The notes beneath the pieces were generated by a model. The model was not told the origin of the DNA. It did no database searches and saw only the letters and a list, made by a program, of their open reading frames with translations. 32,468 nt of DNA from Magnetococcales bacterium (GTDB lineage: Bacteria; Pseudomonadota; Magnetococcia; Magnetococcales; Magnetaquicoccaceae). Position 1 is the stretch's first letter; each line of letters opens with the position of its first letter. The stretch covers positions 9,641 through 42,108 of the forward strand of contig JADGCE010000004.1 of the NCBI GenBank assembly GCA_015229095.1, written 5' to 3'. Positions 6,128-15,209 of this stretch are shown one piece after another. The position numbers and the translations under genes were made by a program.

Positions 6128-6720
6128 ACCCGGAATTGGTGTTGGCCTCCACATCGCCCTACCGACGCGCTTTGCTGGACCGTTTGGGTCTCTCCTATCG
6201 GACCGCCGCCCCACAGGTCAGCGAAGAGCGGCATGCCGGAGAGTCTCCCCAGGCACTGGCCGAGCGTTTGGCCATCAGCAAGGCGCGTGCTGTGGCGACG
6301 GCGTTCCCCGATGCCTTGATTATCGGAGCGGACCAGGTGGCGGTTTTGGAGGGGGATGGGGGAGAAGTGGATATCCTGAGCAAACCGGGCCACCATGCGG
6401 GTGCGGTGGCGCAGTTGCGCCGGGTTTCCGGGCAGCGGGTGCAGTTTTTGACCGGGCTCTGCCTCTACCACAGCCCCTCCGGTCGCTGCCATGTGACGGT
6501 TACCTCCTATGGGGTTCTCTTTCGTCCCCTGAGCGAGGCGTTGATCGAAGCCTATTTGCAGCGGGACAAACCCTACGATTGTGCCTGCAGTTTTAAATCC
6601 GAGGGGCTGGGCATCATCCTGTTCGAGCGTCTGGAAGGGGAGGATCCCACCGCCTTGATCGGTCTGCCGCTGATCGCCCTGCGGCGGTTGCTGGAACAGG
6701 AAAATTTTGCTATCCTCTGA
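6124..6720 (+). CDS. yceF: Maf/YceF family nucleoside triphosphate pyrophosphatase
   Basis: This 198-residue cytoplasmic house-cleaning pyrophosphatase belongs to the Maf family, which hydrolyses non-canonical or modified NTPs to monophosphates. The substrate loop LASTSPYRRALLDRL opens the protein, and IIGADQV carries the catalytic Asp70. CSFKSEGLGIILFERL and TALIGLPLIAL are characteristic of the YceF branch, which prefers 7-methyl-GTP in E. coli, rather than the dTTP/UTP-specific YhdE branch. The ATGA overlap with the preceding gene indicates translational coupling. Its presence in an operon with dcd and a thymidylate-synthase-like protein reinforces the nucleotide-pool theme. Confidence 0.9.
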   Translation: MNPELVLASTSPYRRALLDRLGLSYRTAAPQVSEERHAGESPQALAERLAISKARAVATAFPDALIIGADQVAVLEGDGGEVDILSKPGHHAGAVAQLRRVSGQRVQFLTGLCLYHSPSGRCHVTVTSYGVLFRPLSEALIEAYLQRDKPYDCACSFKSEGLGIILFERLEGEDPTALIGLPLIALRRLLEQENFAIL

Positions 6721-7458: not shown

Positions 7459-8044
7459 AATGCCAGGGCAGTTCAAGAAAGCCGGCCACTCCTGAAACCA
7501 CTCCGATCAGACCAACCAGGAACGACGGAATGAGCATCCAGCGCGCGCGCATCACACCGCTGATCCCCAGCAGGGCGAGGGCAATGTTGATGCTGGCCTC
7601 GGCAACATCAAACTGATCGTCCCGGGCGTTCAGAACCGTGTATTGCTTTTCATGTCCTTCCGCTTGCTCCTTGATTTGCTCTTTCTCCGTGACCAGGGTG
7701 GCGATTTGGGTGTGCAGGGCGGCGATCTGGCTCTCCAGAGCGGCACGGAACTCTGCGGAGTGGCCTCCGCGCAACTGTTCCAGGCGCATGGACTGCAAAG
7801 TATGCTCCGCGAGGTGCTGTTTGGTGCTTTTGGCCTGGAAATAGTTCCAGGCACCCACGGCCTTGCTCTGCTCCTGGCTCATGGCCTGGGCGGTATTGCC
7901 ACCTGTGACGTTGAGCACCCCCAGCAGGGTGGCCAACAGGGTCACTGCGATGGAGACGCCCCAATTGAAACGTGCATCCGGGTCATGTTCGGGGGCACAG
8001 GCCGGTGCGGAGGGGGCGGCATCGGAAGAATCGGCGGGGCTCAT
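7430..8044 (-). CDS. DUF4337-like membrane protein (copy 1)
   Basis: This 204-residue protein has an acidic, Pro/Ala-rich start, a hydrophobic segment at about 28-48 and the motif AWNYFQAKSTK. A predicted coiled-coil region of about 50 residues follows (ALESQIAALHTQIATLVTEKE), then two closely spaced membrane helices near the C-terminus. This arrangement matches DUF4337 proteins, whose function is unknown. AAGGAG lies 6 nt before the ATG. It is the third gene of a minus-strand run (DUF4337, DmeF-like exporter, DUF4337), 36 nt after the exporter, and is a divergent paralogue of the gene at 9113-9712. A role assisting the exporter is inferred from position only. Confidence 0.8.
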   Translation of the reverse strand: MSPADSSDAAPSAPACAPEHDPDARFNWGVSIAVTLLATLLGVLNVTGGNTAQAMSQEQSKAVGAWNYFQAKSTKQHLAEHTLQSMRLEQLRGGHSAEFRAALESQIAALHTQIATLVTEKEQIKEQAEGHEKQYTVLNARDDQFDVAEASINIALALLGISGVMRARWMLIPSFLVGLIGVVSGVAGFLELPWHFTRIAQWLS

Positions 8045-8080
8045 GGCGAACTCCTTGGGGTGTTTGATCGGTGGTTGTCG

Positions 8081-9067
8081 TCAATCACAGGTATTGCAGT
8101 GGTTGACCTCCACCGAGAGATGATCCAGGCCGGCAATACCGCGCAACAGCCCTTTGTAATAGGCAGCATCCTGGAGCTGGTGGACGACCAGGGAGACGAT
8201 GCAGGCGTGGCTGCTGGGACCGACACGCCAAACGTGCAGATCCCCGATTTCGCAGTCGGCATGGGTGGTCAGGCAGGCTCGGATTTTTTCCCGTATCGGC
8301 GAGGTCTCTTCGGCATCCAGCAGGGTTTTGGCACTCTCCCGGATCAATCCCACGCTCCAGACAGCGATGACGGCAGACCCCACAATGCCCATGAGGGGAT
8401 CCATCCATACCCAACCCAGACTCTTGCCGCAGAAAAGGGCGACAATGGCGGTCACCGAGGTCAGGGCGTCGGCCAGCACGTGCAAATAGGCCCCCTTGAG
8501 ATTATGGTCCTGGTGATGCGGCGCACTCTCATGGTCGTGATGGTCGTGATGGTCGTGATGGTCGTGATGGTCATGGTGGTCGTGATGGTCGTGATGGCCA
8601 TGATGGTCATGGGCACCCCCCAATATCCAGGCACTGAGCAGATTGACCAGCAACCCCAACACCGCCACCGTCAGAGCCGTTCCAAACTCTACCGGTATGG
8701 GAGAGAGCAGGCGTTGGCTGGATTCGATGGCCATGAGAAGGGCGACAATACTCAGGGCGATGGCGCTGGCGAAACCTCCCAGGGGACCGGCCTTGCCGAC
8801 CCCAAAGGTGAAGCGGGGATTGTGGGCATTGCGGCGGGCAAAGAGATAGGCAAAGGCGGTCAGACCCAGGGCAGCGGCGTGGGTGCCCATGTGCCAACCG
8901 TCGGCGGTGAGGGCCATGGAGCCGGTCGCGTAGCCCACCAGCAGCTCCACAACCATGGTGACCAGGGTCAGGCCGATCACCCAGTGGGTGCGCCGCTCAG
9001 CGATCTGCGGCAGGTGCAATCCAAAGTGATGTTCGTGCTGCCAAAGGGCGATATCGTGGTTGGGCAC
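8081..9067 (-). CDS. dmeF: Cation diffusion facilitator, DmeF-type divalent metal exporter
   Basis: This 328-residue inner-membrane CDF transporter would export divalent metals (Co2+/Ni2+ in characterised DmeF proteins) by proton antiport. DmeF-like features are the N-terminal WQHEH, then ERRTHWVIGLT, ADGWHMGTHAAALG (Asp56, His59 and His63 region), RFTFGVGKAGPLGGFASA and the second metal-site helix HVLADALTS (His196, Asp200). Residues 153-188 form a cytosolic loop of HDH repeats encoded by a 9-bp tandem repeat. The C-terminal domain contains DLHVWRVG. The start is GTG 9067, with GGAG 8 nt upstream. It is flanked by two DUF4337 genes on the same strand. Confidence 0.9.
   Translation of the reverse strand: MPNHDIALWQHEHHFGLHLPQIAERRTHWVIGLTLVTMVVELLVGYATGSMALTADGWHMGTHAAALGLTAFAYLFARRNAHNPRFTFGVGKAGPLGGFASAIALSIVALLMAIESSQRLLSPIPVEFGTALTVAVLGLLVNLLSAWILGGAHDHHGHHDHHDHHDHHDHHDHHDHHDHESAPHHQDHNLKGAYLHVLADALTSVTAIVALFCGKSLGWVWMDPLMGIVGSAVIAVWSVGLIRESAKTLLDAEETSPIREKIRACLTTHADCEIGDLHVWRVGPSSHACIVSLVVHQLQDAAYYKGLLRGIAGLDHLSVEVNHCNTCD
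8531..8611 (-). repeat. 9-bp tandem repeat encoding the His/Asp-rich loop of DmeF
   Basis: Nine consecutive 9-bp units occur here, most reading ATGGTCGTG on the plus strand with single-base variants in units 5, 6, 8 and 9. In the minus-strand gene they encode repeated HDH/DHH at residues 153-179 of the exporter. Unit length is a multiple of three, so copy-number changes would keep the frame and vary the number of metal-binding histidines. Confidence 0.95.
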
Positions 9068-12389: not shown

Positions 12390-13136
12390 CTATTTTACCT
12401 CGGCTCGGTTTTCCGGCGGGAGCCGACCGGCCAGCAGCAACCGGTTGAAGAGAATATTGGGGGAGATCCAGAAGAGTTGGTCGTCAAAACCTTGCTCCCT
12501 GTCAGTGTGGTAGGGGGCATGGACAAAACGGGCATCTCCATTGCTGTTCTCCTGCTCAGAGGGGCTGCGGGGAGGAGGGTTGGTCACCCCCAGCGCACTG
12601 AGGGCTCCCAGGCCATTGGCTCCGTGAGAGAGAAAAACGGCTGGGGTGTGATCGATGCCGTTGACTACCTGAATGGTTCCCGTGCTTGCCAGGGTGAAGG
12701 CGGGCCAGGGGGCTTTGCTGTCATCGGTAAACGGTTTCGAGACGGCGTAGGTAAAGCGGTTGTGCCAGGCGTCCTCCTCTCCCACGCCCAAGGTAAGCCA
12801 GGGAATGGTGCCCTGCCAGAGCGAGGCGGTTGGGTTGCCCGCGCACCCTGCGCCCTGTCGGTCTTCCCGGCCATCGCGGTCGATGTCGGGACAGGGGAGA
12901 TGACCATGCACCAGGGCAAATCCCAACAGAGCCTCATGCAGGCGTTCGAGTTGCTCCTTGGTCTCCCGTCGTTGGCTGTTTTCCCATTGGGTGGAGAGGG
13001 GCAGCAGCACCCCTCCCAGCAACAGGCTGAGGATAAGCATGACCATAGTCATCTCGATCAGAGTAAAACCGGCTGCAACAGACAGCTGGTGCCGTCGCAG
13101 GGGCAACAGACGGCCTGAGCGGTGGTGTGCATCCAT
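12390..13136 (-). CDS. Type IV pilin-like / type II secretion pseudopilin
   Basis: This 248-residue protein carries a class III signal: a basic leader of 23 residues, then GFTLIEMTMVML, with cleavage expected after Gly23 and the canonical Glu at +5 (Glu28). The N-terminal helix continues to about residue 45. The globular part contains GHLPCPDIDRDGRED and a second Cys (QGAGC), which could form a disulfide or hold a cation, then WHNRFTYAVSKPF. It would be processed by a prepilin peptidase and assembled in the inner membrane. No other pilin or secretion gene adjoins it, though the pil cluster lies at 25-31 kb. AGGGA lies 8 nt before the ATG. Confidence 0.8.
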   Translation of the reverse strand: MDAHHRSGRLLPLRRHQLSVAAGFTLIEMTMVMLILSLLLGGVLLPLSTQWENSQRRETKEQLERLHEALLGFALVHGHLPCPDIDRDGREDRQGAGCAGNPTASLWQGTIPWLTLGVGEEDAWHNRFTYAVSKPFTDDSKAPWPAFTLASTGTIQVVNGIDHTPAVFLSHGANGLGALSALGVTNPPPRSPSEQENSNGDARFVHAPYHTDREQGFDDQLFWISPNILFNRLLLAGRLPPENRAEVK

Positions 13137-13346
13137 GGGTGTATCCCTGTTGCAAGAGGGGCGTGGCTGTTGACGGGAGATCGCGTGAACAGTCGCGACC
13201 AGCCCCCCACGATAGGGAGAAGCGGGGCAGGATTCAAGGAAGGATTGCTCCCTTCCGATACAGTGTGGTATAGGTGGCTGCGGAGGAGGGGCATGGGTTG
13301 CCCCCCGTTCCTGCCCACAGCACACGGTTTTTCCACAGAGGCCAGC

Positions 13347-14261
13347 ATGGAAAACAGTCCATCGCATCCGGTCGACCTGCTGCCGGCTGCCGAACTCACC
13401 GTTCAAACCCTCCTGAATCGCTATCTGGCGGAAATTTCCAGTAAAAAGTCGCCTGTCGCCCAGGCGCAGGAGGGCCGCATGGCCCTCTATCTGAGCGCCC
13501 GTTTGGGCCCTTTGCCGCTCTCGGAGTTGACCCCCCTGGTGCTGACGCAATTTCGGGAGTCCCGCCTGCAAGAGGCCTCTGCCAGCACGGTGTCGCGTGA
13601 TTTTTCCTTCCTTTCCCAAGTGATGGAAAGTGCCATCCATCTCTGGGGTATCTCTTTGGCAGGTAATCCTCTGCATGTGGTGGCCCCCCCCGTGGATATA
13701 CGGGGACGGGGTCGCCAACTGCAACCTGGGGAACGGTTGCGCCTGATTGCTGCCTGTGCGCGCCACAGCAACCCCATGCTGGGCTGGGTGGTGCGCATTA
13801 TTTTGTCCACGGGGATGCGCAAGGCGGAGGTGTTGCACCTGCAGCGCAGCCATCTGGACCTCAAGGCCCGACTGCTCCATCTGCCCAAAGTGGGGGCCAC
13901 CGGGGTGGCCCGGGTGGTTCCCCTCGGCCAGGAGGCCGGCAAAGCCTGCAAAGAGGCCTTGCAGCACGCTCTGGCGAGCCTGGATACCCCGCTCCTGTTT
14001 TTTGGCGAACCCGGCAAATTTGGTCAACGACGTCCCTATGCCATCGACCGGGTACTCCGGCAGGCCATGAACCGGGCGCGATTGAAACCCTACAGTTGCG
14101 AGGAGTTGCGGGATGATGCCATCCTGCGCATGCGGGAAGCGGGATTGACGGAACAGGAGGTGGTGGCCATCACTGGTCTGCGCACCCTGCGTATCGATCG
14201 GCGTGCGCCGCATTTGCAAGGGGAGGTGCTCCTGCGCCGCCTGGATGAGCTGGGATTGTAG
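13347..14261 (+). CDS. Tyrosine recombinase-like protein with degenerate active site
   Basis: This 304-residue protein has an N-terminal SAM-like DNA-binding domain (about 15-110) and a C-terminal tyrosine-recombinase fold. The first Arg is present (STGMRKAEVLHL, Arg158), as are a candidate Lys181 and the second Arg (Arg255 in EELR). The usual HxxR His is Glu252, the GH/GW position is Leu278, and the Tyr nucleophile position aligns with Ala287. The alignment is ungapped across that segment, so these losses look genuine rather than frameshift artefacts. It is probably a DNA-binding protein without recombinase activity. ATG 13347 has AGAGG upstream; the longer frame to 13122 lacks homology. miaA starts 3 nt after its stop. 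Confidence 0.8.
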   Translation: MENSPSHPVDLLPAAELTVQTLLNRYLAEISSKKSPVAQAQEGRMALYLSARLGPLPLSELTPLVLTQFRESRLQEASASTVSRDFSFLSQVMESAIHLWGISLAGNPLHVVAPPVDIRGRGRQLQPGERLRLIAACARHSNPMLGWVVRIILSTGMRKAEVLHLQRSHLDLKARLLHLPKVGATGVARVVPLGQEAGKACKEALQHALASLDTPLLFFGEPGKFGQRRPYAIDRVLRQAMNRARLKPYSCEELRDDAILRMREAGLTEQEVVAITGLRTLRIDRRAPHLQGEVLLRRLDELGL

Positions 14262-14264
14262 GGG

Positions 14265-15209
14265 ATGGATGCGCCCCATGGCCCCATCCCTCTGCTGGTG
14301 ATTTTGGGTCCGACAGCGTCGGGCAAAACCCGCTTGGCTGTTGCCTTGTCCCAAACCATCCTGCAGCAGCGTCAACGGGGGTGCGAAATCATTTCCGCCG
14401 ACTCCAGGCAGGTGTTTCGCGGCATGGATATTGGCACCGGCAAAGATTTGGCGGAATATGGCGACCTGCCTTACCACTTGATCGATCTGTGTGATCCGGG
14501 TGTCGAGTTCAGCGTCTATGCGTTTCAACAGCAGTGCTACCAGGCCATGACCGCCATCCATGCCCGTGGCCATTTGCCCGTGCTGGTGGGGGGGAGCGGG
14601 TTGTATCTGGATGCCATTGTGCGGGGGTATGCCCTGTTGCCTGCGGCGATCAACCCGGCCCTGCGCCAAACGATGGCAGAGTGGACAGAGGAGAGGCTGG
14701 AGGCCCATTTGCGCCACCTGCGTCCCCAACTGCACAACCGTACCGACCTGGTGAGTCGGGAACGCCTGTTGCGGGCCATTGAAATTGCGGAACAGGAGGC
14801 CAACTCTCCTGCGTCACTGCCCGCTCCTCCTTTAAATCTGCTCATTTTTGGGATACGCTGGCCCCGCGCCGTGTTGCGGCAGCGCATTACCCACCGTTTG
14901 CAACAGCGATTGGAGAGCGGATTGCTGGCCGAGGTGGAGGGATTGCTGGCAGGAGGCCTCTCTTCCCGGCAGTTGGCGGCTTATGGCCTGGAATATCGGT
15001 TTTCTTGTGAATATCTGGCAGGTCAATGGAGCCGGGATGAATTTTTCCAGGGGTTGAACCGAGCCATTCATCAGTTTGCCAAACGCCAGGATACCTGGTT
15101 CCGGCGCATGGAACGCCAGGGTGTGGCCATTCGCTGGCTGGATGCGGAAGCGGATCCTTTGGCAGAGGCTGAACAGATTCTTCTGGCGCGGGGTTTTCCA
15201 GAGGAATAG
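14265..15209 (+). CDS. miaA: tRNA dimethylallyltransferase
   Basis: This 314-residue enzyme transfers dimethylallyl from DMAPP to N6 of A37 in tRNAs reading UNN codons. The Walker A loop is GPTASGKT. SADSRQVFRGMDIGTGK, LPYHLIDLCDP and GGSGLYLDAI are the family signatures, and FAKRQDTWFRR lies near the C-terminus. Length is typical (about 300-315). The gene starts 3 nt after the recombinase-like gene stop, with TAGGGG as the only nearby Shine-Dalgarno-like sequence, so translational coupling is likely. It is somewhat divergent from E. coli MiaA in the central region but has all key motifs. Confidence 0.95.
   Translation: MDAPHGPIPLLVILGPTASGKTRLAVALSQTILQQRQRGCEIISADSRQVFRGMDIGTGKDLAEYGDLPYHLIDLCDPGVEFSVYAFQQQCYQAMTAIHARGHLPVLVGGSGLYLDAIVRGYALLPAAINPALRQTMAEWTEERLEAHLRHLRPQLHNRTDLVSRERLLRAIEIAEQEANSPASLPAPPLNLLIFGIRWPRAVLRQRITHRLQQRLESGLLAEVEGLLAGGLSSRQLAAYGLEYRFSCEYLAGQWSRDEFFQGLNRAIHQFAKRQDTWFRRMERQGVAIRWLDAEADPLAEAEQILLARGFPEE

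Follow-up and report, generated by a model that had tools for sequence, protein, structure and literature searches.

A catalytically dead tyrosine recombinase kept as a chromosomal gene in Magnetococcales, probably as a DNA-binding regulator

What might an integrase do once its active site is gone, and is such a gene a passing relic or a settled part of the chromosome? The question is raised by one gene in the window, that is, the whole stretch of 32,468 nucleotides analysed here, which comes from a Magnetococcales assembly of 2.6 Mb and 75% completeness (locus label G000:C186). The gene lies at 13347..14261 on the plus strand and encodes a catalytically dead tyrosine recombinase of 304 amino acids. 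As the preliminary description had stated, the frame is full-length and intact, with 304 codons from the ATG at 13347 to the TAG at 14261. An alternative, longer start exists at a GTG (13122); most orthologues in genus g1 begin with Met-Glu at the place equivalent to the ATG, which is therefore the likely start. A 781-codon antisense frame (12390-14735, minus strand) runs through the gene into the neighbouring pseudopilin gene, and we took it as a by-product of high G+C content. Those of its close relatives that bear names are Magnetococcales MAGs.

Fold and active site

By descent, the protein belongs to the tyrosine recombinase/phage integrase superfamily, as indicated by matches to Pfam PF00589 (Phage_integrase, residues 127-277 of 304, E 9.4e-13) and PHROG phrog_1 (integrase, residues 15-256, E 1e-30) and by Foldseek matches to lambda Int, Tn1549 Int and XerA. 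Alignment, Pfam and the AlphaFold model place a core-binding domain at approximately residues 14-112 and a degenerate catalytic domain at approximately residues 127-304. XerC or XerD identity was rejected, the NCBIfam equivalog scores being 26 bits against a cut-off of 335 for XerC and 20 against 330 for XerD; a canonical XerD is encoded elsewhere in the same genome (G000:C48). The predicted model, of modest confidence (mean pLDDT 76, pTM 0.56, from 11 sequences), contains the helices of both domains. The structure prediction that had been proposed as a check recovers lambda Int and XerA, and it also matches MrpR/YopR and SroF. Global TM-scores were low, at about 0.4, plausibly owing to a flexible linker between the two domains, and isolated catalytic domains reached TMt values of 0.65-0.67.

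To assign residues, we aligned the window protein with 28 dead homologues and with intact integrases. Arg158 (13818..13820, plus strand, as for all residues given here) retains the first catalytic Arg position. The Lys position of the beta-hairpin (beta2-beta3) is occupied by Gly183 (13893..13895), where intact relatives mostly read TKN, and the HDLR motif is replaced by EELR (residues 252-255, 14100..14111), with Glu252 at the HxxR His and Arg255 at its Arg. Further downstream, Leu278 (14178..14180) stands at the third-box His/Trp position and Ala287 (14205..14207) at that of the nucleophilic Tyr, with no Tyr beyond residue 249. The substitutions of His by Glu252, of His/Trp by Leu278 and of Tyr by Ala287, previously proposed from an ungapped motif match, thus fall at the same positions in an alignment with intact integrases. 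Of the active set (R, K, H, R, H/W, Y), the window protein retains two of six residues, Arg158 and Arg255.

These losses extend to the entire clade. Lys, His, His/Trp and Tyr are absent from all 29 full-length homologues, and the Lys position never carries Lys. Because all 29, each from a different genome, have the same losses, chance or sequencing error is ruled out. The observation is therefore real and stronger than first stated, as the catalytic Lys is lost too and the losses are clade-wide. The claim that both arginines are kept stood in part: both are present in the window protein and Arg255 is invariant (29/29), but position 158 is Arg in only 16 of the 29. It is kept in g1, family f13 and part of family f8, is replaced by Ser, Thr, Asn, Gly or His in genus g2, and is Lys in three f8 members. 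Glu161 is invariant in a 22-row alignment. The positive net charge has been kept, and many Arg and Lys residues are conserved.

A shifted Tyr or His completing the active site had been named as the finding that would overturn this reading. Column counts across the dead clade revealed no conserved His at all and, within the catalytic domain, no conserved Tyr either, the sole near-universal Tyr being Tyr26 in the core-binding domain; therefore, no shifted residue completes the active site. The nearest intact relatives, from the same order and from viral contigs, read HDLRH...GH...RYTH. The termini differ as well. At the N-terminus, most intact relatives are extended by about 60 residues that follow one conserved pattern (GTW...RR.G.P...F..K.DA..WA...E), and in the alignment the dead clade is devoid of this region, the usual site of the arm-binding region. 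In the dead integrases of f8 and f13, the recombinase fold is followed by a C-terminal tail that is basic and rich in Gly (RR..G.FG or similar), for instance at the C-terminal ends of L036:7986-9023 and L044:7177-8187 (families f8 and f13); the tail is missing in f1.

A single dead clade under purifying selection

Full-length members were found in 29 of the 48 genomes of the class, a further genome (G017) having a fragment. They represent four Magnetococcales lineages, namely the genera g1 and g2, both of family f1, and the families f8 and f13. Among 399 sampled genomes of the phylum, no dead form occurred outside Magnetococcales: all matches scoring at least 398 bits, the level of dead full-length members, came from the order of the window. 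All seven viral-contig relatives examined were catalytically intact, and close intact integrases were few and scattered across the genomes.

In a tree from which five catalytic-site columns (158, 252, 256, 278 and 287) had been left out, the 29 dead sequences form a single clade with a support of 100/100, nested among intact prophage-type integrases, and g1, g2, f8 and f13 each form one clade within it. Several independent losses are unneeded, since the dead sequences constitute one clade. Constraining family f1 as a unit was not rejected (p-AU 0.246), and vertical descent is therefore compatible with the data. For 12 pairs of dead integrases, dN/dS ranged from 0.04 to 0.20, indicating purifying selection; together with the 29 intact frames, these low values rule out a recent pseudogene or an assembly error.

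Gene neighbourhoods and upstream DNA

The gene order in the window is a ferritin-like gene, an exonuclease gene (reverse), a pseudopilin gene (reverse), the dead integrase and miaA, and it is much alike in other g1 genomes. The pseudopilin-like gene (12390..13091, minus strand; prepilin N-terminal motif, GspG/GspH-like) stands head-to-head with the dead integrase. Defining close pseudopilin orthologues by a score of at least 220 bits, we found 11 genomes that have one, of which four belong to g1 and seven to f13, and every one of these shows the head-to-head arrangement. The pseudopilin gene does not adjoin the dead integrase in g2, in f8, or in G003 and G006; the latter two retain the dead integrase and miaA and have no pseudopilin gene. 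Genome G004 has none of the dead integrase, the pseudopilin gene, the second miaA and the exonuclease gene.

On the other side, the miaA gene (14265..15209, plus strand) has its start codon 3 nt past the stop of the dead integrase. It is a second, divergent paralogue, here termed miaA2, scoring 181 bits to TIGR00174, as compared to 323 bits for the canonical copy at G000:C164. An extra miaA copy is present in part of the order, mostly alongside the dead integrase. The dead integrase lies upstream of miaA2 in all six g1 members, in f8 and in one g2 genome (G011). In f8 and G011, pyrG, kdsA and a gcvT-like gene come next, and in f8 a small frame separates the two genes. The two genes are not neighbours in f13 or in most of g2; f13 has a miaA2-pyrG-kdsA group elsewhere, with no dead integrase beside it. 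Because the adjacency is confined to g1, f8 and one g2 genome, the coupling to miaA that had been proposed is real but limited to certain lineages: it holds in all six g1 genomes and more loosely in f8 and G011, fails in f13 and most of g2, and concerns the extra paralogue rather than the housekeeping copy. Among relatives at least 85% complete in our sample, the dead integrase is always accompanied by a second miaA, and four genomes (G023, G028, G030 and G032) have miaA2 without the dead integrase.

Most g2 dead integrases lie near a TetR-family gene. In this genus the dead integrase follows the TetR-family regulator and often lies tail-to-tail with a CheV-like gene that combines CheW and receiver domains, as in L053:6432-7043 and 7985-8914. 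Since the lineages keep differing subsets of neighbours, these look like pieces of one ancestral gene arrangement, of which different parts were retained in each lineage. The dead integrase is a chromosomal gene in stable neighbourhoods common to several families, and the pseudopilin gene is a partner at least as strong as miaA2. No lineage has a conserved active integrase beside it. The domestication suggested by the preliminary description finds good support in the single dead clade, the strong purifying selection and the stable chromosomal neighbourhoods between families.

The intergenic DNA contains a putative sigma-70-type promoter, TTGCTC-N18-TATAGG (13245..13274, plus strand), detected by alignment and pattern listing. 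Each of the six g1 members has a promoter-like pair TTG...-N18-TA.... in a similar place, 84-126 bp ahead of the start. Just upstream of this pair sits a conserved 33-bp element, CCACGATAGGGAGAA..GG..GATTCAAGG (13207..13239, plus strand), a candidate operator or upstream element that is common to four of the six g1 members and whose core pattern occurs once in its own genome. No convincing palindromic operator emerged: when 12 upstream regions were searched for inverted repeats of recombinase-type geometry, the matches were no better than in shuffled sequences, except for the dRS3-like repeats of G002. Between the pseudopilin gene and the dead integrase, G002 has two inverted-repeat pairs of dRS3-like ATTCCCGC...GCGGGAAT units (L031:6054-6126 and 6187-6259).

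Possible function and known systems

DNA binding by the dead integrase is likely, being plausible from the conserved Arg and Lys residues, the modelled tyrosine-recombinase fold and the precedent of MrpR, the SPbeta master repressor. We regard it as reasonably probable that the protein is vertically inherited and domesticated and binds specific DNA sequences, probably so as to regulate transcription as MrpR does. According to this model, the gene descends from a prophage-type integrase. As alignment and tree show, the N-terminal arm-binding region disappeared, as did the catalytic Lys, His, His/Trp and Tyr, once, in an ancestor common to at least three families of Magnetococcales (f1, f8 and f13), and purifying selection has since maintained the gene on the chromosome. 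The two-domain clamp, with its predicted fold, the invariant HxxR Arg and many basic residues have been preserved. The protein most probably continues to clamp a specific DNA site but leaves it uncut. Binding near a promoter could then regulate transcription, with its own promoter and the head-to-head pseudopilin gene, and miaA2 through the operon, as the first candidate targets. A more specific version, in which a phage-type integrase became a permanent transcription factor controlling the pseudopilin gene and, by way of the operon, the second tRNA-isopentenylating enzyme encoded by miaA2, anciently, across several families of one order and with no prophage context, is a possibility that we put forward tentatively. 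Because no neighbour is universal, the pseudopilin gene and miaA2 each lying apart from the dead integrase in some lineages, the regulatory target may also lie away from both.

Retention of the fold and of its basic residues would also suit a non-catalytic partner or architectural protein, one that, for example, bends DNA or joins an intact Xer protein or integrase in a mixed tetramer and thereby modulates recombination, and intact XerD-type proteins are indeed encoded in the same genomes. We nevertheless consider this rather unlikely, as no conserved active integrase adjoins the gene in any lineage and close intact integrases are few and scattered. A role in tRNA modification or translation, with the protein as a partner of MiaA2 or an RNA binder and the pseudopilin gene incidental, would account for the tight linkage to miaA2 in all g1 members, f8 and G011 and for the second miaA in every sufficiently complete dead-integrase genome of the relatives sample. 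It appears quite improbable given that miaA2 is located elsewhere in f13, beside pyrG-kdsA, and in most of g2, that four genomes carry it without the dead integrase, and that the fold is of the DNA-binding kind.

The two remaining explanations concern the state of the gene. Outside the clade, the protein is closest to prophage and phage integrases, as expected if the gene were left over from a prophage or other integrated element and decaying, with a frame still open by chance; the 29 intact frames, the low dN/dS, the neighbourhoods conserved between families and the single ancient loss event make this highly improbable. We find it equally hard to credit that the enzyme is still an active recombinase whose nucleophile is displaced or supplied in trans: both Arg255 and Glu161 are invariant, with Arg158 persisting in g1, f13 and part of f8, but Lys, His, His/Trp and Tyr are lost, with neither a catalytic-domain Tyr nor a His conserved. 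Our preferred reading of a DNA-binding regulator makes this a natural case of a dead integrase outside a prophage, which goes back to a single loss, has 29 descendants in the sample and can be compared with intact sister integrases, and the dead integrase with its pseudopilin neighbour is a defined gene pair in which regulation is directly testable.

By sequence, the closest relatives are prophage and phage integrases, comprising viral contigs (IMG/VR loci L155-L161, 36-38% identity), Pseudomonas phage PAJU2 (32%) and intact Magnetococcales homologues (L018, L052 and L024; up to 43%, for L018). The viral-contig and Magnetococcales integrases keep HDLRH, GH and the Tyr of RYTH, whereas the dead clade has none of these, and the Magnetococcales ones mostly carry the extra N-terminal region that the dead clade lacks. 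A literature search on Magnetococcales integrases or on inactive integrases retrieved nothing specific. An inactivated tyrosine recombinase has been co-opted for DNA recognition in TnsF of Tn6022, a target selector (PMC10293859). TnsF differs in its domain make-up, with zinc fingers at the N-terminus, two core-binding domains and a catalytic part that is truncated, and it acts with TniQ in a transposon (PMC10293859). A TnsF-like role was rejected for the dead integrase, in which Pfam reveals no zinc finger and whose identified neighbours are not Tn7 genes. The Crypton-derived host genes (DUF3504; PMC3212892) are likewise described as domesticated tyrosine-recombinase domains, but eukaryotic and of another lineage.

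The nearest counterpart in mode of action would be MrpR (YopR) of the Bacillus subtilis prophage SPbeta, which has a tyrosine-recombinase fold, has lost recombinase function, and represses by binding a 15-bp element (PMC10516654). MrpR (PDB 8A0A) and SroF, the phage phi3T repressor (PDB 9RD5 and 9RGL), are Foldseek matches of our model, and the dead integrase shares with MrpR a tyrosine-recombinase fold, as predicted, and a degenerate active site, as aligned. A sequence-profile search matched HP1 integrase, XerA and others, and neither MrpR nor SroF; by sequence, the protein is not in the MrpR family, and we infer that it would have arrived at such a mode of action independently. MrpR lacks the first Arg, the His and the His/Trp and retains Tyr and Lys (PMC10516654). 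Whereas MrpR is prophage-borne, the dead integrase is chromosomal and has lost both Tyr and Lys, illustrating that a dead integrase can become fixed as a chromosomal gene. The authors of the MrpR study surmised that tyrosine recombinases recruited as transcription factors are perhaps more widespread than anticipated (PMC10516654).
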